From positions 1 through 32,094 of IMG/VR virus record IMGVR_UViG_3300030101_002237: DNA of 32,094 bases, one strand, 5' to 3'. Position 1 is the stretch's first letter; each line of letters begins with the position of its first letter. This document shows positions 1-13,314 of this stretch, piece by piece. Position numbers and translations under genes: made by a program. The notes below the pieces were generated by a model. That model saw only the letters and a list, made by a program, of their open reading frames with translations, was not told the origin of the DNA and did not search any database. The DNA is from a virus.

Positions 1-1799
1 TTCTCATTTCCTTCGGTTATATTAAAAAGAGTATCTGCACCAACAGCTACATTAGAATCACCAGTAGTGATGCTTCGCATTACCGCAAATCCAATTCCAG
101 TATTACGTTCTGCCGCACCAACATTACCAGAACCCATTGCTTCTTGACCAAAAATCGTGTTATGATCTGCTCCTACATTACCTGACTGTTGCCAAGCAGT
201 ATGTCCAAATATTGTATTGCCTGTGTTGCCACCATCATTATTCGATAGTGAGATAACGGAGTTGCTGTCTAAAATAATTCTTTTTGTATTAGTACCAGCT
301 ACCTTTACATAAAAGTTATCTGCACCATGGTCATATCCTACTCTTCCTTGTTGGTTTCCACCATCATCTCCAAAGTGAATGATTCCGTGACTTGTATTTC
401 CACTTAAAATATTGATACCAGCTAAACCGCTATTCTCAATAGTTAACTGTGCTTCAGAAGTGGCAGTTATTGATCCAGCACTTGCTTGTAAAATGTGAAG
501 CTTCGTGTCTGGATTATCTTGATTTATACCAACATTTCCTCCAAATTTCAGAGTAAGTATTTTATCTGAACCAGCAAAGCTATTTCCTGTGGTTGCATCA
601 TCAACATAAAAGTCTACTCTGTCATTTGCCCCATCAGCGTACATTGCAAACTTTCCAGAATTGTTTATTAATTGCAATCCAGAATCTGCACTTCCAGAGT
701 CGTGGACAACTAAACCAGCAGGAACACCATCTAATGAACTATTTGTACCTTTAATTTCTAAGTTAGATATCGGAGAGCTACTTCCTATACCAACAGATGA
801 AGAAAAAGTAGCTGAACTATCATTAGAAAGAGTTAATATTGAATGTTGAGTACCATCACTTGCTTCTGTATGAAATTTTATATCACCACCGTGCCTTAAA
901 CTTCTTATGTTTAAGTCACCAGTGTTTAAATGGTCAAGGTATGAGTTACCGCCATCGTGATATATTTGTATATCTTCACTTGCACCAAGTTTTAAAACAC
1001 CACCAGAACCACTTGCATCTGATAAAGTTAAATGACCAGAAAAAGTAGCATCACCAGAAGGTACAATTACGAGTGCATCATTATAACCATTATTTTCCAA
1101 AACAGAAAACGTCAAAGACGCATCCATATTTGCACCAGTAGAAAAGTCTGCTTCTTTTTTAGCAGTTATCTTTGCACCACCTCTAATATTTGAACCATCT
1201 CCTAAATTAAGACGTAAGGCGGCTGTTTCATTTACAGATGAACTGCCACCAGTAACATTGTTAAGTGCTATATAAGCATCACCATCTACACTTTGTGAAA
1301 AAGTAGCCGATTGATCTGAACCTATGGTGAGTGCAACAGCGTTATTTACAAAAAAATCTAAACTGTCATCTGCATGGTCGTAATCTATTGCACCTATTTC
1401 TTCATTATCATTATCTCCAAACCACAGTCTGCTATTTTTAGTATTTAGAGCTTTTATTAGTATGCCTGTATCAGCATTTGTGCTTTCAAATAATGCTTTA
1501 ACATCACTTCCTGACGATTCACAATGAATAAGTCTTTCTGGACTTGACGTTCCTATGCCAACCCTTGAGTTAGTTGTATCTACAACAAATACATCACCCC
1601 CATCACCATTAGCTCTCACCAATAAGGCTTCTGTGCTAGTGACATCTATTACTTGTGTACCTTCTATTATCTCATCAAATGATAATGATCCACCACCATC
1701 TACCTGGAGATCACCATTGATGACCAAGTCTCCTGTGATCGTACCGCCAGAAGAAATTTGCGCTGATGTGTTGCTAATTAAATTTTTAAAAGATGCCAT
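1..1799 (-). CDS. Tail fibre protein, N-terminal part (cut by window end)
   Basis: Open from ATG at 1799 to the window edge, about 599 residues with no stop. The start has a good ribosome site (TAGGAG, 6 nt spacing). The product begins MASFKNLISNTSAQ and is rich in Ser, Gly, Asn and Asp. It contains several motifs of the type VGIGTSSPERLIH and VGINQDNPDTKLH, typical of phage and bacteroidete fibre/adhesin beta domains. The end turns into YadA-like left-handed beta-roll repeats (TGDSNVAVGADTLFNIT). The peptidase S74 C-terminus expected for such a fibre is missing here but is present at 30841-32094 on the same strand, so this is very probably the first part of one gene of about 1,020 codons. 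Role: receptor binding at the tail tip (inferred from the family). Confidence 0.85.
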   Translation of the reverse strand, partial: MASFKNLISNTSAQISSGGTITGDLVINGDLQVDGGGSLSFDEIIEGTQVIDVTSTEALLVRANGDGGDVFVVDTTNSRVGIGTSSPERLIHCESSGSDVKALFESTNADTGILIKALNTKNSRLWFGDNDNEEIGAIDYDHADDSLDFFVNNAVALTIGSDQSATFSQSVDGDAYIALNNVTGGSSSVNETAALRLNLGDGSNIRGGAKITAKKEADFSTGANMDASLTFSVLENNGYNDALVIVPSGDATFSGHLTLSDASGSGGVLKLGASEDIQIYHDGGNSYLDHLNTGDLNIRSLRHGGDIKFHTEASDGTQHSILTLSNDSSATFSSSVGIGSSSPISNLEIKGTNSSLDGVPAGLVVHDSGSADSGLQLINNSGKFAMYADGANDRVDFYVDDATTGNSFAGSDKILTLKFGGNVGINQDNPDTKLHILQASAGSITATSEAQLTIENSGLAGINILSGNTSHGIIHFGDDGGNQQGRVGYDHGADNFYVKVAGTNTKRIILDSNSVISLSNNDGGNTGNTIFGHTAWQQSGNVGADHNTIFGQEAMGSGNVGAAERNTGIGFAVMRSITTGDSNVAVGADTLFNITEGNE

Positions 1800-1808
1800 G
1801 CTACGCTC

Positions 1809-2141
1809 CTATGCTAGTACGATGCGCACAGTTGATGTCGCACCTTTGCCGAGTAAGTGTAAAAAAACCGCTGAACCAATACCATGAGGTACATTAAGTT
1901 CGTATATGGTGTCTCCGCCCGCTAAATACAGGCTATTTGACGCGTTTATCATATCACTGGCACTACTACTGAATCCATAATAAATATCGCTACTAGGCTG
2001 TAATATGACGCTGTGTACCGAGCTTACATCTAGATTATATTCTGAGCCTGTGGCAACACTTTGCGCGGATTGTACTGAATGATTTGCAGAACTGCTGATA
2101 TTCAGTGATTCAACCACTGAATGTTTGGATAGATCAGCCAT
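1809..2141 (-). CDS. Small probable virion protein
   Basis: 110 residues with a strong ribosome site (AAGGAG, 7 nt before ATG). The protein is Ser/Val/Ala rich with no long hydrophobic segment and looks all-beta (alternating hydrophobic residues in SEYNLDVSSVHSVILQ and STVRIVLA). It sits between the capsid genes and the tail fibre and ends 9 bp before the fibre start, so it is co-transcribed with both. A decoration, head-fibre or fibre-attachment role is possible from position alone. I do not recognise the family. Confidence 0.75.
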   Translation of the reverse strand: MADLSKHSVVESLNISSSANHSVQSAQSVATGSEYNLDVSSVHSVILQPSSDIYYGFSSSASDMINASNSLYLAGGDTIYELNVPHGIGSAVFLHLLGKGATSTVRIVLA

Positions 2142-2198
2142 CTTGTTTCTCCTTTCTGAATGCCTTACCGAGCGTGACTTGTCTCATGGGCATTTCGG

Positions 2199-2384
2199 TT
2201 ATTCTATGATGTTTTGTTCTCTTAAACTTGCATCACTTATTGTTTTCATATGAATAATTGGACTTGCTATCAACTTGCGAACTTTTATAGAACTGCATTT
2301 TGGGCAAGTAATTTTATCATCCTTGGACCATAATTGTTCCCACTTATAGTTGCAACGATGACAAAGAAAATCGTTTGTTTTCAT
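2199..2384 (-). CDS. Small zinc-ribbon protein (FmdB-like)
   Basis: 61 residues. The first half carries CHRC at residues 8-11 and CPKC near residues 27-30, a four-cysteine zinc ribbon (C-x2-C ... C-x2-C) as in FmdB-type regulatory or structural ribbons. The ATG overlaps the stop of the preceding gene (ATGA), so translation is coupled. The second half is short and has no recognisable domain. Function in phages is unknown. It lies in the late structural operon just after the capsid gene. Confidence 0.75.
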   Translation of the reverse strand: MKTNDFLCHRCNYKWEQLWSKDDKITCPKCSSIKVRKLIASPIIHMKTISDASLREQNIIE

Positions 2385-2542
2385 TTTTTCTTTTTCAAAC
2401 TTATCTTTCTCTTTGGCTTTTTTACTTCACCTTTTTCATTGCAAGGTTCACAGCCATCTTTGATGTATGCATCAATCTGTTCTTTACTAATTGAATCTAG
2501 CTTACCAAAAACTGATCCATCTTTTCTTTTAAAATATTTCAT
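2381..2542 (-). CDS. Small basic hypothetical protein after the capsid gene
   Basis: 53 codons from ATG 2542 to TGA 2381. It starts MKYFKRKDGSVFGKLDSIS, has a CEPC pair near residue 31 and ends in a Lys-rich tail (SLKKKK). The ribosome site is textbook (AAGGAG, 5 nt before ATG). The stop overlaps the start of the zinc-ribbon gene (ATGA). The gene lies directly behind the hairpin at 2559-2582, so its expression probably depends on read-through from the capsid gene. Function unknown. Short proteins of this kind often follow the capsid gene in marine phages. Confidence 0.7.
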   Translation of the reverse strand: MKYFKRKDGSVFGKLDSISKEQIDAYIKDGCEPCNEKGEVKKPKRKISLKKKK

Positions 2543-2558
2543 TTTATCTCCTTAAAAC

Positions 2559-2582
2559 TGGGTGGGCCATAAGACCCACCCA
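2559..2582 (-). terminator. Hairpin terminator/attenuator behind the major capsid gene
   Basis: TGGGTGGG and CCCACCCA form a perfect 8-bp stem with an 8-nt loop, starting 11 bp past the capsid stop codon. On the minus strand the stem is followed by AGTTTTAAGG, only four U residues, so it is probably a partial terminator. This would give high capsid expression with reduced read-through into the downstream small genes and fibre. Confidence 0.6.
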
Positions 2583-2593
2583 ATTATTATTCC

Positions 2594-3463
2594 TTACGGA
2601 TTGTTGAAGTTTACAACTCCAAGTGACGTGCTAGAAGCACCATGTGACAACGATGCGCCAAACAAAATGTCGGCAACCACGCTGGTCGCCAGGTGGTCAA
2701 TGTCGTAGGCCGACTGCACCCTTGGTGCAATCTGCATAGCCATGTACACTGCTTCTTTTTTGAATATGGACGCTGTTTCATCTCCACTTCCACCATCATC
2801 ATCCCAATCTGTACTAATGAAAGTTGGCATTCCATAAATCATGCCTACGCCACCAGATACGTTAGGATTCTGCTCATCACCTCTACGAGATGAATCGAAG
2901 AAGTCTTGAAGACCTAACAATCCCATATATGCAGCAGGAGAAGCATACAAGTATGTTTCACCATCAGCATAATCAAAACCTGCGTCAAGCAGTTTTTGTA
3001 AACCACTACGTAACAACGCAGAGGTTATGGTATTATCACTTGATAAACTTACATCATTACCAGTTGCAGACTGAAGTACGTCTACTGCCAAGTAGTTTTC
3101 AACCTTCTTAGCTAATGCATAACCCATAGATTGCGCATATGCTCCAAAGAGGTTTGCTGACTCCTGGACTCTGACAATATCTTCTATTCTCTTCGCTTCA
3201 TAATGATGTTGATCAACAGTAATGGTGACCTCACCATCAGTGTTGTTTTGATACGTTACCGCACTTCCTGCGGATTTTGCAGCAGCAGTTTCCTCTGTTA
3301 CCTTTGGTATATGAAGCACATCTCCAGAAGGTAGCTCAGAAGAAAAATCCATCACTTGATTACGCAACTCAAACTTACGTTCTGCATAATCCAGAATAGC
3401 GTCACGCCATAGCTCTGGGATGAATACTGCCGCGGTAGTGGTTGTTACATTACCATCAGCCAT
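2594..3463 (-). CDS. Major capsid protein
   Basis: 289 residues, start supported by AAGGA 7 nt upstream. The N-terminal part (VFIPELWRDAILDYAERKF) and the following GDVLHIPKV segment resemble HK97-fold coat proteins of uncultured marine phages. A central part (YLYASPAAYMGLLGLQDFF ... YGMPTFISTDWDD) and a late part (KKEAVYMAMQIAPRVQSAYD) also match the usual coat pattern. Context is decisive: it follows a coiled-coil scaffold and precedes a terminator hairpin. It forms the icosahedral shell. The family call is from pattern recognition and position, not a search. Confidence 0.88.
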   Translation of the reverse strand: MADGNVTTTTAAVFIPELWRDAILDYAERKFELRNQVMDFSSELPSGDVLHIPKVTEETAAAKSAGSAVTYQNNTDGEVTITVDQHHYEAKRIEDIVRVQESANLFGAYAQSMGYALAKKVENYLAVDVLQSATGNDVSLSSDNTITSALLRSGLQKLLDAGFDYADGETYLYASPAAYMGLLGLQDFFDSSRRGDEQNPNVSGGVGMIYGMPTFISTDWDDDGGSGDETASIFKKEAVYMAMQIAPRVQSAYDIDHLATSVVADILFGASLSHGASSTSLGVVNFNNP

Positions 3464-3477
3464 TTTTTATTCCTTTT

Positions 3478-4026
3478 TTAAGTTCCTTTGCGTTTATAGG
3501 ATTCCAGTATGTTGCTCCAATTCATGCGCCTGTCTTCGTCTTTTATCTTTCTTAACTCTACATTACCATCATTTACTGGCGCAGATGGTGCGCTGGAAAC
3601 CGCAACGCGTTGTGTTCTAAGTTTCTTTACTACAGCACGCAATGCTTCTATGGGTAACTCCCCAAATGTTGCGTGTTCGTCCTCTGGTATCTCATTTAGA
3701 AGTTCAGCGCGAAGCGATGCTTCTTGCTTGGTAGCTCTTTCAACAATGGGTTCGAGTTCTGCGAGCTTGGATGCACGCTCCTCGGCAAGATTCTTCCATT
3801 GTTCCTGCTCTTCCATTTGAGATATTCGAGTATCCTCGATTTCTTTGCGGAGCTTAGAGAGTTCTGTTTCCGCTGCTTGTGCGCGTCCACGATACTTTTT
3901 TGACTCTGCAATCAGATTACCAACTTCGAGTTGCTGTTGGTCCTGTTCTTGGGTTTGTTCTGGTCCTACAGGATCAACTGTAGGTTCAGGCACTGACTGT
4001 GCAACTTGTGTTTGTTCTTCGGACAT
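3478..4026 (-). CDS. Capsid scaffolding protein
   Basis: 182 residues, acidic and Glu/Gln rich. Residues about 35-115 form a long predicted coiled coil (heptads in AAETELSKLRKEIEDTRIS and LAEERASKLAELEPIVERA). The C-terminus is basic (YKRKGT), as in scaffolds whose basic end contacts coat protein. It sits immediately upstream of the capsid gene (14 bp gap) with its own AGGAG site. Known role of such proteins: template procapsid assembly, then leave or are cleaved. No protease domain or separate protease gene is seen. Confidence 0.82.
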   Translation of the reverse strand: MSEEQTQVAQSVPEPTVDPVGPEQTQEQDQQQLEVGNLIAESKKYRGRAQAAETELSKLRKEIEDTRISQMEEQEQWKNLAEERASKLAELEPIVERATKQEASLRAELLNEIPEDEHATFGELPIEALRAVVKKLRTQRVAVSSAPSAPVNDGNVELRKIKDEDRRMNWSNILESYKRKGT

Positions 4027-4036
4027 ACTGTCACTC

Positions 4037-4501
4037 CTATATGTTTACTTTAACGTGTGTCTTGCTCATACGTGATAGGTTCTTGCCAATTATATTGGCG
4101 AAGTCTTTGACGATACCTTCTTCTACTTTATCGCCTAATTCTTGATTTTCAGCAATGGAACGCTTTGGTAATCCTGTTTCTGGAACACCTGTATTATGCT
4201 GCATCATTTTCGTTCCTTGCTTATTCTTTTTAATACCATATAAAAACTGTATTTCTTGGTTCTTTTTTACTTTTGTGCGTTGCACACCAAACGCATTTAA
4301 CATTTTACCAGTTAGTTTTAAATTAACGCTATCTCTACTAACGCCTTTGCGCTTTGCATATTTAGGTGAATATTTCTCAAATGGTTTGTTGGAAAAATCT
4401 TTTCCACTAGCAATTTGTTGTTTAGTACGCCTAACCGTATTCTCTGCCATCTTTTTTACGTCAGGCTCTCTAAACTTTAATATGTCTTGTAGCTTAAACA
4501 T
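4037..4501 (-). CDS. Virion morphogenesis protein (Mu gpG / tail-completion-like)
   Basis: 154 residues from ATG 4501, which has GGAG 8 nt upstream. An earlier in-frame ATG at 4555 lies inside the upstream gene and has no good site. Features typical of phage virion morphogenesis proteins are present: FEKYSPKYAKRKG, LKLTGKMLNAF (the 'LxxTGxLLxS' element), YGIKKNKQGTKMMQHNTG in place of the usual YAxxHQxG, and LPKRSIAEN like 'PxRPFLG'. Such proteins act in head completion or head-tail joining. The call rests on motif spacing and position between minor head and scaffold genes. Confidence 0.65.
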   Translation of the reverse strand: MFKLQDILKFREPDVKKMAENTVRRTKQQIASGKDFSNKPFEKYSPKYAKRKGVSRDSVNLKLTGKMLNAFGVQRTKVKKNQEIQFLYGIKKNKQGTKMMQHNTGVPETGLPKRSIAENQELGDKVEEGIVKDFANIIGKNLSRMSKTHVKVNI

Positions 4502-5165
4502 CAACAGGACTCCAGTAATGCCTGCATCGATGCCCACCACCATGTTCAAATCCATCTGATTTTACTTGTCTTATCTCATTAATAGTAAGTGGATCACTAG
4601 ATAAGTATGTTCTGCATACAGGACGATTTTTTTCGTCATCTGGTCCAATGTATCTATATAGCGTATCTTCTGGTAAATCCATAGCCATCGCTCCAATCAC
4701 TGCACGTCTATAATCACCCAGCATTGTGTAGATTATATTTTCTACTCGTGGCGTGTTTGTGCGAACCGCGTTACGCATAATATTTTTTAATTCAACACCT
4801 TTGAGTCCACTGTTTACGCCAGCTATCATTGCATTCTGCATCGCATTACTCACTTGCCTGGTGACACCTTCAATACCTTGGCGTTGGAGAGTCTGGAGAG
4901 CCACGAGTTGTACCTCGCTTGTACGCCCAAAACTCGGCAAATCAACAAGAATATCCTCCGTAGTAGCCATGAAGGAGTTGATTGCGGTAGAGAAGCGTAG
5001 CTCCTCAACAAAATAGGTCGCAAAGTCAATTGCAGCGATAACTCCCAGTATTTCAGTTGTAGATAAACCTTCTTCTTCAAGTTGTTCAACATCCTGTTGA
5101 AATCCATTGATGGCATCTTCAATACTATTTTCATACGAATTAACTGTCTGGTCTATTGTTGGCAT
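4494..5165 (-). CDS. Minor head protein (Mu gpF / SPP1 gp7-like)
   Basis: 223 residues. The C-terminal part has the signature of the phage head morphogenesis domain: YRYIGPDDEKNRPVCRTYL followed about 25 residues later by HGGGHRCRHYWSPV, with Cys and His placed to bind a metal. The middle part (NAMIAGVNSGLKGVELKNIM) also fits. It overlaps the portal gene's end by 26 bp, the usual portal-minor head order. No clear ribosome site precedes ATG 5165, so translation may be coupled to the portal. Role: internal or portal-associated protein in procapsid assembly and DNA ejection. Confidence 0.78.
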   Translation of the reverse strand: MPTIDQTVNSYENSIEDAINGFQQDVEQLEEEGLSTTEILGVIAAIDFATYFVEELRFSTAINSFMATTEDILVDLPSFGRTSEVQLVALQTLQRQGIEGVTRQVSNAMQNAMIAGVNSGLKGVELKNIMRNAVRTNTPRVENIIYTMLGDYRRAVIGAMAMDLPEDTLYRYIGPDDEKNRPVCRTYLSSDPLTINEIRQVKSDGFEHGGGHRCRHYWSPVDV

Positions 5166-9617: not shown

Positions 9618-9939
9618 AGAGAGAGAAATAAAAGAATATATTTTAGATTATTTATATGATAATGAATCATATCTAAAAAATAATAATTATGATTTACATG
9701 AATTGCATAATGAGATTTTTAACACTGATTATTATTTAATTGGTTATTACAATTGTGAGCAGTGGTTAAAAGGCCATGCTTTTGAATGTATGGATATTAT
9801 AAAAGAATATGAAGAGTTTAATTTCGGTGAATTATACACAGATTTAACAAACTCTGAAAAAGTTGTTAATATGTATGTTTATATAATAGGTGAAGAATTA
9901 TTGTATAACATGGAAAAGGAACTAAAAAAGAGAGGTTAA
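9607..9939 (+). CDS. Early protein of a small phage family (unknown function)
   Basis: 110 residues from ATG 9607, chosen because AAAAAGGAGAG precedes it; an in-frame ATG at 9568 has no such site. The protein is acidic. The segments FNTDYYLIGYYNCEQWL and DLTNSEKVVNMYVYIIGEEL resemble a family of short early proteins in cyanophages and other marine phages with no assigned function. The C-terminus ELKKRG is encoded by a 21-bp sequence that also supplies the next gene's ribosome site. Confidence 0.7.
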   Translation: MYYKEREIKEYILDYLYDNESYLKNNNYDLHELHNEIFNTDYYLIGYYNCEQWLKGHAFECMDIIKEYEEFNFGELYTDLTNSEKVVNMYVYIIGEELLYNMEKELKKRG

Positions 9940-9942
9940 AAA

Positions 9943-10491
9943 ATGATAAAAGAAAGCAAAATTACAAGAATATTTAAACATATTCAAAACACGCCTAAAT
10001 TAACTTATAAAGAGTTAATTACATTCATATGTAATATGAACGGGCGCGAATATCAAAACGGGTATTATAGCACTATTTTAACAAACTTACGCCACCGCGG
10101 GCGGTTTTACACTAATAAACAAGGCTATGTAAAATTGACCGCGCTTGGTAAAAAAATGATAAATACGCCATGCGCGAAAACACCGCAAGAAAAGAAAGAG
10201 GACATGGAAAGAAGAATATATTATAAAATTAGGCGCGAAGTTGAAAATCATTTGAGAAAAGAAGAAAAAAGAAACGTGCAATGGAACTTGGAAAAAATAG
10301 AGGAACGCGGACACGTTGAAACCATTGGCGAACTCATTTATTTTTTAAAGAGTTTTGATTCTTATGACAAAATAGAACTTTCAGTTGATGAAGAGGGCAA
10401 CGCGTTTGGTAAAATACATTGGCAAGTATTTTATGATAAGTTAGACGGTTGGCAAAATAAAGTAACTTTAGTTCCATTAGTTAGGTATTAA
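9943..10491 (+). CDS. Early protein with winged-helix-like N-terminus
   Basis: 182 residues. Residues 1-75 (RIFKHIQNTPKLTYKELITF ... STILTNLRHRGRFYTNKQGY) look like a winged helix, with a recognition helix followed by a beta wing and KLTALGKKM. A charged helical stretch (about 85-120) and a small alpha/beta part follow. It might be an early DNA-binding regulator; this is inference. It uses more GC codons (GCGC, CGCG) than upstream genes. Its stop codon lies inside stem I of the hammerhead ribozyme, so self-cleavage would trim this message's 3' end. Confidence 0.65.
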   Translation: MIKESKITRIFKHIQNTPKLTYKELITFICNMNGREYQNGYYSTILTNLRHRGRFYTNKQGYVKLTALGKKMINTPCAKTPQEKKEDMERRIYYKIRREVENHLRKEEKRNVQWNLEKIEERGHVETIGELIYFLKSFDSYDKIELSVDEEGNAFGKIHWQVFYDKLDGWQNKVTLVPLVRY

Positions 10492-10492
10492 A

Positions 10493-10554
10493 CCATACTG
10501 ATGAGCGCGGACGGTTACCGCGCGAAATCCCGCGTATTTGCGCGGGATATATGG
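10493..10554 (+). ncRNA. Type I hammerhead ribozyme
   Basis: All conserved core positions are present in order. Stem I 5' arm is CCATA (10493-10497), then CTGATGA (10498-10504). Stem II is GCGCGG/CCGCGC (10505-10510, 10518-10523) with loop ACGGTTA. GAA (10524-10526) follows. Stem III is ATCCCGCG/CGCGGGAT (10527-10534, 10541-10548) with loop TATTTG. The cleavage nucleotide is A 10549 (AUA, a valid NUH), then stem I 3' arm TATGG (10550-10554). Stem I can continue past an internal loop (10487-10492 against 10555-10556) as GGT/ACC (10484-10486, 10557-10559), giving the loop-bulge contact partner type I ribozymes need. Predicted cut: between 10549 and 10550, separating the gene ending at 10491 from the gene at 10589. 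Confidence 0.88.
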
Positions 10555-10588
10555 AAACCATAAACAACAAAAAAAGAGAGGTTAAAAT

Positions 10589-10756
10589 ATGTTTGTATTA
10601 GTTGTTTTACATGATAGTACAGACCCTTGGACATATGGCCCGTATAACACCATAAACCAAGCGCAAAAAGCAAAAAAAGACTACCAAAGCACTTGGACTC
10701 ATAGAGATTGGGACGCAATGAGCGTAGAGATATGCGAACTAAAAAAGAGAGGTTAA
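10589..10756 (+). CDS. Small early protein, unknown
   Basis: 55 residues starting MFVLVVLHDSTDPWTYGPYN. It looks like a small alpha/beta protein (beta strand FVLVVLH, helix TINQAQKAKKDY, late strand SVEICEL). Short phage proteins of this pattern are common but unassigned. It sits 39 bp downstream of the predicted ribozyme cut site, with a GAGAGG ribosome site. Its 3' end is the 21-bp repeat also found at 9919-9939. Confidence 0.65.
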   Translation: MFVLVVLHDSTDPWTYGPYNTINQAQKAKKDYQSTWTHRDWDAMSVEICELKKRG

Positions 10757-10905: not shown

Positions 10906-10930
10906 AACCCGCATTTATGCGGGTTTTTTT
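10906..10930 (+). terminator. Rho-independent terminator of the early operon
   Basis: AACCCGCA/TGCGGGTT (8-bp stem, loop TTTA) runs directly into seven T residues ending at 10930. It is strong and unambiguous and closes the plus-strand early operon. Confidence 0.92.
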
Positions 10931-11463: not shown

Positions 11464-13314
11464 CTATTCGCTCAAACCATCTAGTTCAGTCTCTAATTTG
11501 ACGTATTGACCATGACCAATCTTACTAATTAAGCCTTGTTTTATCATACGTTCCAACCAATTAGACACTGCGTTATTACTACTCATTCCAACTATGGATT
11601 CCAGCGCAGCCTTAAACATTTCTCTGCTAAAGTTATGCCCTTCTGTCGCAATCGACTGCAAGACTTTTTCTTCCACCGACTCTTTCGGATCAGTATACCA
11701 AAACATTTCATTCTTTGGAAGCGGCTTCAAATACTCAAAGTACAATGGCCCATCATTAACATTATGCAACTTGACTCCAACTGGCACTCCATGAAGATCA
11801 TTCTGACTGCGCACCTTCGTAATCTTCATTACCTTCAATCCAGGTAAACGCTGACTACTAGCAAGTTGCACAATCCCATCCAAGTGATTCGTATACGCAC
11901 TACCGCCCAACATCATACTGACATCAAGTGGACTCGCTTCACCCAGCTTCTTATGATGCGACACAATCAAAATCGCAACCTTATGCTTATTCTTTAAATT
12001 TACCATCGTCCGCAACAAATCCATCACATCATCATTTTTGCTTACATTCTTATTAGTACTCGTATACAAATTATCTACCACCAACACTTCGCATGGGTCA
12101 AACGTCAAATTTGCGTCCATTTCTTCCCACTTATCGGTAAACACATTGTCTTGCCCACTGCTCAAAATACTAAGATTCTGCTCAAACCGTTCTGCTTCTA
12201 CTGGATACTTGTCAACAAAATGCATTGCGGTCCGCTCAATCAACTGCTTAAAACTCTCGTCTTTCAACTCAAACTGTACATGCATAACCTTCCTTGCCTT
12301 TGGTATCCTAAACCCTAGGAACGGCACACCTAACGCCAAACACGTAGACAACTGCAAGCTCATCACCGACTTACCCACGTTCGTACCGCCTGCAAGGCCC
12401 ATAATATCCTTCTCAAAGAACAAGTCATCAATGATAGGCTCTGGCATTTTTACAAAGGTTTTAGCAAACTGCGAAGGACTGAAACTGCGCATTCCGCCAA
12501 TGTCCTCTGGTTTATCACCAAACCGCACACAGCACGCCAACAACTGATCCAAACTATGACCATCACTAAACCAGTCAGTAAGATCATACCTGGAAGGCTT
12601 ATCTTCCCACTTCATCACATAAAGCTCTACCTTATGCGCAAATAGCCTTTTTGCCAGTTTTTGCGCACCTAGCTCGCCTTTTTCGTCATTATCGTACACG
12701 ATGTATACCTTATTATATCTAGATGGCAAGGTTATTTTAGCAGGCAGCGCACCCGCACCTGACGTAAATGTCAAGGCGGATGCGCCATTGCAGTATGCGG
12801 TGACAACGTCCTTTTCACCTTCGCAGATCACAAGGCTGGAGAGAGATAGATGCGGAGTATCAAACACCTTGCATTCTGCGTCACCAAACTGCGGTCCTTT
12901 ATGAAATTTTACATGATTCTCATTAATCTGAAACACCAACTGCGCATTCTTCTTTTCATCGCGCCTGACACCTATTGACAGGTCCAGACACTTGTCATTC
13001 CAAGGCAACTCAAGCTCATCTATAGCCTTTTGCCAATGGGTAACAAACGTAGCACGGGCCTGTGAATATCCGCTCTTTTTGACCTCTTTTGACTCAACTT
13101 TAACCTTGGTGTTGGTCAGTTTATATTCTACCCGCGGGGTTTTTATCTTCTCTTCGCTGAAATCCCAACTAAACTGGCACTTGTGGCAGTAAGCGTACTC
13201 ACCATTAATCTGCACTGTGCCTTGCTTACGTGATGTAGCATCGTCACACTCAGGACACCAAGCGCGCTTACCATTGTGAGTTATTCTAGAGAAGACATTC
13301 GATGCACTCCTCAA
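11464..13314 (-). CDS. Primase-helicase (zinc ribbon, TOPRIM, RecA-like helicase)
   Basis: 616 residues. Domains in order: a zinc ribbon CPEC/CHKC (Cys 20, 23, 43, 46) as in T7 gp4-type primases; a TOPRIM domain with EGEKD (165-169) and DND (208-210); a RecA-like helicase with Walker A GGTNVGKS (309-316) and Walker B VLVVD (410-414), closest in style to RepA/AAA_25 helicases; a C-terminal winged-helix-like segment (about 555-605). It primes and unwinds DNA at the phage fork; no polymerase is encoded, so host enzyme is probably used. The start appears to be TTG overlapping the previous stop. It is the downstream end of the replication operon, next to the repeat cluster. Confidence 0.92.
   Translation of the reverse strand: MRSASNVFSRITHNGKRAWCPECDDATSRKQGTVQINGEYAYCHKCQFSWDFSEEKIKTPRVEYKLTNTKVKVESKEVKKSGYSQARATFVTHWQKAIDELELPWNDKCLDLSIGVRRDEKKNAQLVFQINENHVKFHKGPQFGDAECKVFDTPHLSLSSLVICEGEKDVVTAYCNGASALTFTSGAGALPAKITLPSRYNKVYIVYDNDEKGELGAQKLAKRLFAHKVELYVMKWEDKPSRYDLTDWFSDGHSLDQLLACCVRFGDKPEDIGGMRSFSPSQFAKTFVKMPEPIIDDLFFEKDIMGLAGGTNVGKSVMSLQLSTCLALGVPFLGFRIPKARKVMHVQFELKDESFKQLIERTAMHFVDKYPVEAERFEQNLSILSSGQDNVFTDKWEEMDANLTFDPCEVLVVDNLYTSTNKNVSKNDDVMDLLRTMVNLKNKHKVAILIVSHHKKLGEASPLDVSMMLGGSAYTNHLDGIVQLASSQRLPGLKVMKITKVRSQNDLHGVPVGVKLHNVNDGPLYFEYLKPLPKNEMFWYTDPKESVEEKVLQSIATEGHNFSREMFKAALESIVGMSSNNAVSNWLERMIKQGLISKIGHGQYVKLETELDGLSE

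Follow-up and report, generated by a model that had tools for sequence, protein, structure and literature searches.

The DNA considered here (the window) spans positions 1 to 32,094 of the IMG/VR virus record IMGVR_UViG_3300030101_002237. It carries on its plus strand an operon of small genes, which lies on the strand opposite to the structural genes and for which the term 'early' is plausible. Two consecutive genes of this operon are separated by a gap that holds only a ribozyme and a ribosome-binding site (RBS; table 1). The preliminary description of this DNA had placed a self-cleaving ribozyme in an intercistronic position, and this is where it lies, its first stem beginning after a single nucleotide beyond the upstream stop and its predicted cut falling 39 nt before the next start.

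The protein encoded upstream matches no PHROG or Pfam family above the cut-off. Homologues of its gene are found in seven loci of other phages (L026, L027, L029, L030, L046, L047 and L048), and the one in L029 (4498-5043; 52% identity) matches phrog_2440, 'transcriptional regulator', with E 2.8e-4. A phrog_1392-type protein, which we take to resemble the phage Gp88 family, recurs near the gene preceding the ribozyme (L029:5129-5710, L012:8053-8631, L048:3715-4644). The RBS motif AAAAAGAGAGGTTAA is repeated at the junctions 9920-9945, 10571-10588 and 10737-10756, where it is read as the C-terminal KKRG of the preceding ORF.

Table 1. Features of the ribozyme-bearing junction, in window coordinates.
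Feature	Positions	Strand	Remarks
Upstream gene, 182 aa, stop TAA 10489-10491	9943-10491	+	from the ORF list; one nucleotide lies between stop and stem I
Stem I, 5' strand CCATA	10493-10497	+	pairs with 10550-10554; invariant in 16 loci
Catalytic core CUGAUGA, C3-A9 (CTGATGA)	10498-10504	+	invariant in 16 loci except N7 (T/A/C)
Stem II GCGCGG/CCGCGC with 7-nt loop ACGGTTA (10511-10517)	10505-10523	+	both-sided changes at 4/6 pairs
Loop II pseudoknot strand GGUU	10513-10516	+	partner AACC 10556-10559
Core G12 A13 A14 (GAA)	10524-10526	+	invariant in 16 loci
Stem III hairpin ATCCCGCGT / GCGCGGGAT	10527-10548	+	both-sided changes at 5/9 pairs; 97% of cells paired
Predicted cleavage site after H17 (A10549), triplet AUA	10549/10550	+	position taken from the hammerhead consensus alignment
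Stem I, 3' strand TATGG, and pseudoknot strand AACC (10556-10559)	10550-10560	+	
Ribosome-binding region of the downstream gene (AAAGAGAGGTTAAAAT)	10571-10588	+	motif repeated at the operon's other junctions and after the ribozyme in relatives
Downstream gene, 55 aa	10589-10756	+	start 39 nt past the cut; homologues follow the ribozyme in L010, L013, L031 and L047
Terminator-like hairpin with T run	10906-10925	+	probable operon end

Anatomy of the ribozyme

A complete hammerhead lies at 10493-10560, with all defining nucleotides in place and with A15.1 (10527) and U16.1 (10548) forming the base of stem III. It belongs to type I, since loops close stems II and III whereas stem I is left open. 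Folding of 10484-10559 for minimum free energy (MFE) gave the three-helix hammerhead (-29.8 kcal/mol, z -3.7), and none of 200 shuffles was equally stable. With a descriptor that demanded the core, A15.1-U16.1, H17 and the three stems, the window scored 21; the maximum among 3000 dinucleotide shuffles was 16, only two of them reaching at least 15. A second copy was looked for in the window and none was found. The AUA cleavage triplet is not the commonest one in hammerheads.

The earlier claim of a type I hammerhead with all invariant nucleotides is borne out by these results, and so is the proposed cut between 10549 and 10550, which agrees with the consensus alignment and with the identity of H17 in relatives. 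The extent proposed at the time, 10484-10559, has to be redrawn to approximately 10493-10560, 10484-10491 being the end of the upstream ORF.

Conservation and covariation among related loci

Relatives were collected through the primase-helicase of the window (11464-13314, minus strand), which led to 42 loci of related IMG/VR phages, and through the upstream gene, which led to three more. From these, 16 distinct ribozymes were gathered by the motif CCATACTGANGA .. GAAA .. TATGGAAAC, pairing in stems II and III not being demanded (alignment A3). The core is invariant in all 16 loci, variation being confined to N7 (T, A or C) and H17. At H17 the relatives have A, C or T but no G, in searches that did not demand it, which fits the hammerhead rules. 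The paired positions of A3 are indeed paired in 95.8% of cells, as compared with 26-52% when partners are slid, and both-sided changes in stems II, III and the pseudoknot amount to 43 cells versus 16 in shuffles. Across the 16 loci, compensatory changes are seen at four stem II pairs and at five in stem III. Both checks on relatives suggested at the outset, namely core conservation and compensatory changes, were therefore answered in favour of a hammerhead. Stem I does not vary in this subfamily, so it supplies no covariation and speaks neither for nor against; it varies with compensation in a larger type with a GATTAA stem I (see below), where pairing was part of the selection.

The stem II pair 10.1-11.1 (columns 13 and 31 of A3), normally G-C in hammerheads, is non-standard in seven of the 16 loci, being U-U in L010, L011, L013, L026, L027 and L032 and A-C in L004; a non-standard pair at this place is unusual. 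Tandem hammerheads are found in L173 (3499-3556 and 3864-3922) and also in L181, one with the CCATA stem I and a different loop II, and these may link the type of the window to others. A loose pattern without the full stem I, applied to IMG/VR, returned mostly chance matches (3 of 80 loci confirmed). The species-genome collection held no member of the window's ribozyme subfamily, and a search of phage records for cultured relatives gave no useful match.

At the gathering thresholds of Rfam 15 there is no match in the window, RF00163 (Hammerhead_1, threshold 34 bits) giving none and the best sub-threshold match being RF03152 (RAGATH-1-hammerhead; 29.5 bits versus the 56.3 needed, E 0.0034 on 276 bases). 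Nothing passed these thresholds in 125 kb of other hammerhead-bearing loci either, clear ones included, so that the silence of Rfam says little here and such copies are missed by annotation pipelines. A hold-out covariance model, built on 13 relatives with the window, L004 and L047 left out of training, finds the ribozyme as its sole match in the window (86.1 bits, E 7.9e-17), and it is still detected at 24.5 bits (E 5e-4) by a model whose training set was confined to the GATTAA type. The covariance check proposed earlier thus fails at the curated Rfam thresholds and succeeds with the models built here. Chance resemblance, to which a short stem I and the lack of an Rfam match at thresholds might point, is refuted at the sequence level by a descriptor score that none of 3000 shuffles reached and by the covariation in 16 loci, and its probability is negligible.

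The loop II pseudoknot and the stability of stem I

In the 16 loci, loop II pairs with an AACY strand just 3' of stem I, 94% of cells being paired over five pairs. Most relatives have AGUU in loop II, and most have AACU on the 3' side of stem I; the window, L004 and L047 have GGUU and AACC at these places, and L005 too has GGUU in loop II. The variable pair is accordingly A-U in ten loci, G-C in three (the window, L004 and L047), G-U in one (L005) and unpaired in two (L011 and L013, in which loop II reads UGUU). The alignment supports this pseudoknot as the tertiary contact of a type I hammerhead. Pseudoknots of this kind were reported by Perreault et al. (2011, PMC3088659) to be common and to matter for speed. 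The pseudoknot takes the place of the contact first proposed, between loop II and an internal loop of stem I: the outer helix which that proposal needs (GGT/ACC, 10484-10486 with 10557-10559) is full in only three of the 16 loci, and 10484-10491 is coding. A switch in which AACC would pair with the GGUU of the RBS was also considered and is not conserved.

With 40 nt of flanking sequence included, the probability that ViennaRNA assigns to stem I of the window is close to zero, and low values are found in several relatives. In the window this is due to CATTAGT of the upstream ORF, which can pair with the core, and to TATGG, which can pair with the CCATA at 10558-10562; the resulting hairpin TATGG-AAA-CCATA (10550-10562) competes with the 5-bp stem I, and its full 5-bp form is absent from the sequences of the other members. 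Stems II and III, which are GC-rich, formed in all sequence contexts that were tried. The energy models omit the pseudoknot, so the fold evidence against stem I is weak but real; they omit ordered folding too, and a translating ribosome would cover the upstream strand. On these models it is possible that the particular copy in the window has low activity.

The gene junction and its neighbours

The layout in the relatives is stop, ribozyme, RBS and start; in 14 of 16 loci the upstream stop is separated from stem I by 0-5 nt, and the median distance from cut to start is 30 nt. The genes on either side are interchangeable, seven upstream and six downstream families occurring in 12 combinations in the 16 loci. 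A gene of the MKREKG family follows the ribozyme in L004, L009 and L025 and follows a plain RBS, with no ribozyme, in L023. The close relatives L012 and L043 are without the ribozyme, and a degenerate hammerhead was not found in them even with filters off; its absence from several close relatives implies that it is not essential.

Two other roles were rejected. Its hairpins are not followed by the T run of a terminator, a terminator-like site being present further on (table 1), and the ATG at 10551, within TATGG, is in frame with the next gene, as a leaderless start would be, in some relatives only, where the frame results from the RBS being read as KRG..M.

The larger GATTAA/TTAATC type

In L029 and L048 the homologues of the upstream gene (52% and 41% identity, respectively) are followed by a hammerhead with a GATTAA/TTAATC stem I and quite different stems, and in L048 a hammerhead lies on each side of that gene. 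A scan of IMG/VR for this stem I with the core (GAUUAA/UUAAUC in RNA) found at least 120 stretches; the control pattern, with G5 changed to C, found three, none of which scored with model R3. This loss of pattern matches, at least 40-fold, bears on the notion of a non-catalytic structured spacer, whose strong hairpins would insulate translation, block exonucleases or be cut by a host or phage RNase. The robust folding of stems II and III and the intergenic position would suit such a spacer, which however explains neither the effect of changing G5 nor the invariance of CUGANGA, GAA and A15.1-U16.1 and the absence of G17 alongside varying stems, and it appears quite improbable.

Among the fetched loci, 176 of 219 GATTAA-type matches lie outside called genes, as against 13% of random positions, and 143 of 165 are co-directional with both neighbours. 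These counts are approximate because a greedy, simple ORF caller was used; small antisense ORFs and early alternative starts account for many of the 'inside' cases. The upstream stop codon overlaps ribozyme nucleotides at 102 of the 148 junctions with a clear upstream ORF (56 being the UAA of stem I and 13 the UGA of the core CUGA), although not all junctions are independent, some contigs being near-duplicates. From the cut to the next start the median distance is 25 nt, and the median junction measures 71 nt with a ribozyme versus 3 nt for the others of the same loci.

Copies of this type are often clustered, with nine in 4.3 kb of a 51-kb contig (L186) and seven in 5 kb of an 83-kb contig. 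In L205 (an 82.7-kb contig), L186, L225 and L273, the five to nine hammerheads are confined to one small-gene region each. L319 (JAAGZR010000219.1, 5798 bases), filed under an Aliivibrio metagenome-assembled genome and looking like a phage fragment, has eight in 4 kb (541-4565), nearly one per junction. The Mucilaginibacter genomes L318 and L320 have a single one each, that of L320 lying upstream of a gene judged by eye to be an ISXO2/IS1595-like transposase, with no obvious prophage. Model R3 had no match in MW202828 or in Cellulophaga phage phi38:1, which have GroEL in common with one array contig.

Clusters of three to nine, common as they are, and the two hammerheads around one gene in L048 could also be seen as pairs that release an RNA, to be ligated into a circle or to act separately, rather than as a means to separate mRNAs. 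Such release is very improbable for the window, where the copy is single, and spliced or circular products were sought by Perreault et al. and none were found (PMC3088659).

Within clusters, stem I and the core are alike while stems II and III differ, only their structure being kept, which indicates that the copies are not recent duplicates. This is relevant to another view of the element, as an active ribozyme kept as a recombination joint for accessory cassettes, or as a small selfish element that spreads into gaps. One ribozyme shared among seven upstream and six downstream families, its patchy presence and its many copies per cluster in other phages are what would be expected of either. 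A joint, however, would need neither an invariant catalytic core nor compensation in stems II and III, dead-core versions are rare and the clustered copies have diverged, so that this view is considered unlikely, if less so than a spacer or a released RNA.

Proposed function

On the sequence evidence, the element of the window is a real, conserved and most likely active type I hammerhead at a gene junction, which probably acts in cis to cut a polycistronic phage transcript between two ORFs. The presence of the same device in the gaps of related and unrelated phages suggests that it would serve to cut long mRNAs into single-gene pieces. This mRNA-processing reading is based on structure, conservation, covariation, position and gene shuffling, from which we infer cleavage, the chemistry of the ends and an effect on expression.

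In the proposed sequence of events, RNA polymerase would make the 5' strand of stem I, the core, stems II and III and then the 3' strand of stem I with AACC; the latter would pair with loop II, and the folded ribozyme would cut after A10549. Hammerhead cleavage leaves 2',3'-cyclic phosphate and 5'-OH ends. By this known chemistry, a 2',3'-cyclic phosphate would terminate the upstream mRNA behind a pair of GC-rich hairpins, and the downstream mRNA would carry a 5'-OH, followed by an open leader of 39 nt that contains its RBS. Ends, decay and translation would in this way become separate for the two cistrons. RNase E is stimulated by a 5'-monophosphate, and a free 3'-OH is needed by many exonucleases, so that both cleavage products may be stabilized.

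A further and tentative idea, which we regard as rather doubtful, is that self-cleavage is gated by translation. A ribosome terminating at the upstream stop would cover stem I and the core, and the ribozyme would then cut only those transcripts whose upstream cistron is not just being finished. If true, such gating would couple the cutting of mRNA to the translation load of each individual gene throughout the phage gene clusters.

With respect to junction cutting itself, the retention of the ribozyme while the genes on either side are swapped, together with the many cluster junctions whose ribozymes keep a constant spacing to the stop and start codons, speaks for a single generic task, and the swapped-neighbour lineage and the cluster junctions provide constructs for its direct test. 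The reason for the enrichment of ribozymes such as hammerheads in the vicinity of certain bacterial and phage genes is still called unknown (PMC10085705).

Comparison with known systems

With Rfam RF00163 (Hammerhead_1) the ribozyme of the window shares its topology; some GATTAA-type copies match this family at 14-30 bits, but its threshold of 34 is unreached by any copy tested and the window is unmatched. The core, and an A/U-rich sequence preceding stem I, are shared with RAGATH-1 (RF03152), whereas the 5' hairpin of that model is unconvincing in the window and the gathering score is not attained. The theta (HDV-like) ribozymes of gut phages are also self-cleaving, reside in phage genomes and have a proposed processing role, but belong to another ribozyme class and have tRNA 3' trailers, not gene junctions, as their proposed target (PMC10879173).

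The closest precedents are the phage and prophage hammerheads of Perreault et al. (2011, PMC3088659), which have the same type I order, core and loop II pseudoknot, and which lie beside or between phage genes, with several copies flanking genes, as in the phages described here. Such phage clusters flanking genes cleave in vitro, and a hammerhead triple of A. tumefaciens cleaves when transcribed in E. coli; cleavage, though no benefit, was shown in that work, whose authors call the biological function unproven (PMC3088659). In the early region of the haloviruses HF1 and HF2, a hammerhead variant precedes a helicase gene by 13 nt (PMC3088659). The subfamily of the window differs from the 2011 set in its CCATA/TATGG stem I, its AUA, AUC and AUU triplets, its 7-nt loop II and several U-U pairs at 10.1/11.1, and the searched text of PMC3088659 contains no description of its constant spacing between stop codon and stem I. 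Thus, elements of this kind have been known since 2011, whereas, as far as is shown by the searchable open-access literature, outside which most subscription journals lie, the subfamily and its strict stop-ribozyme-RBS-start layout are new.
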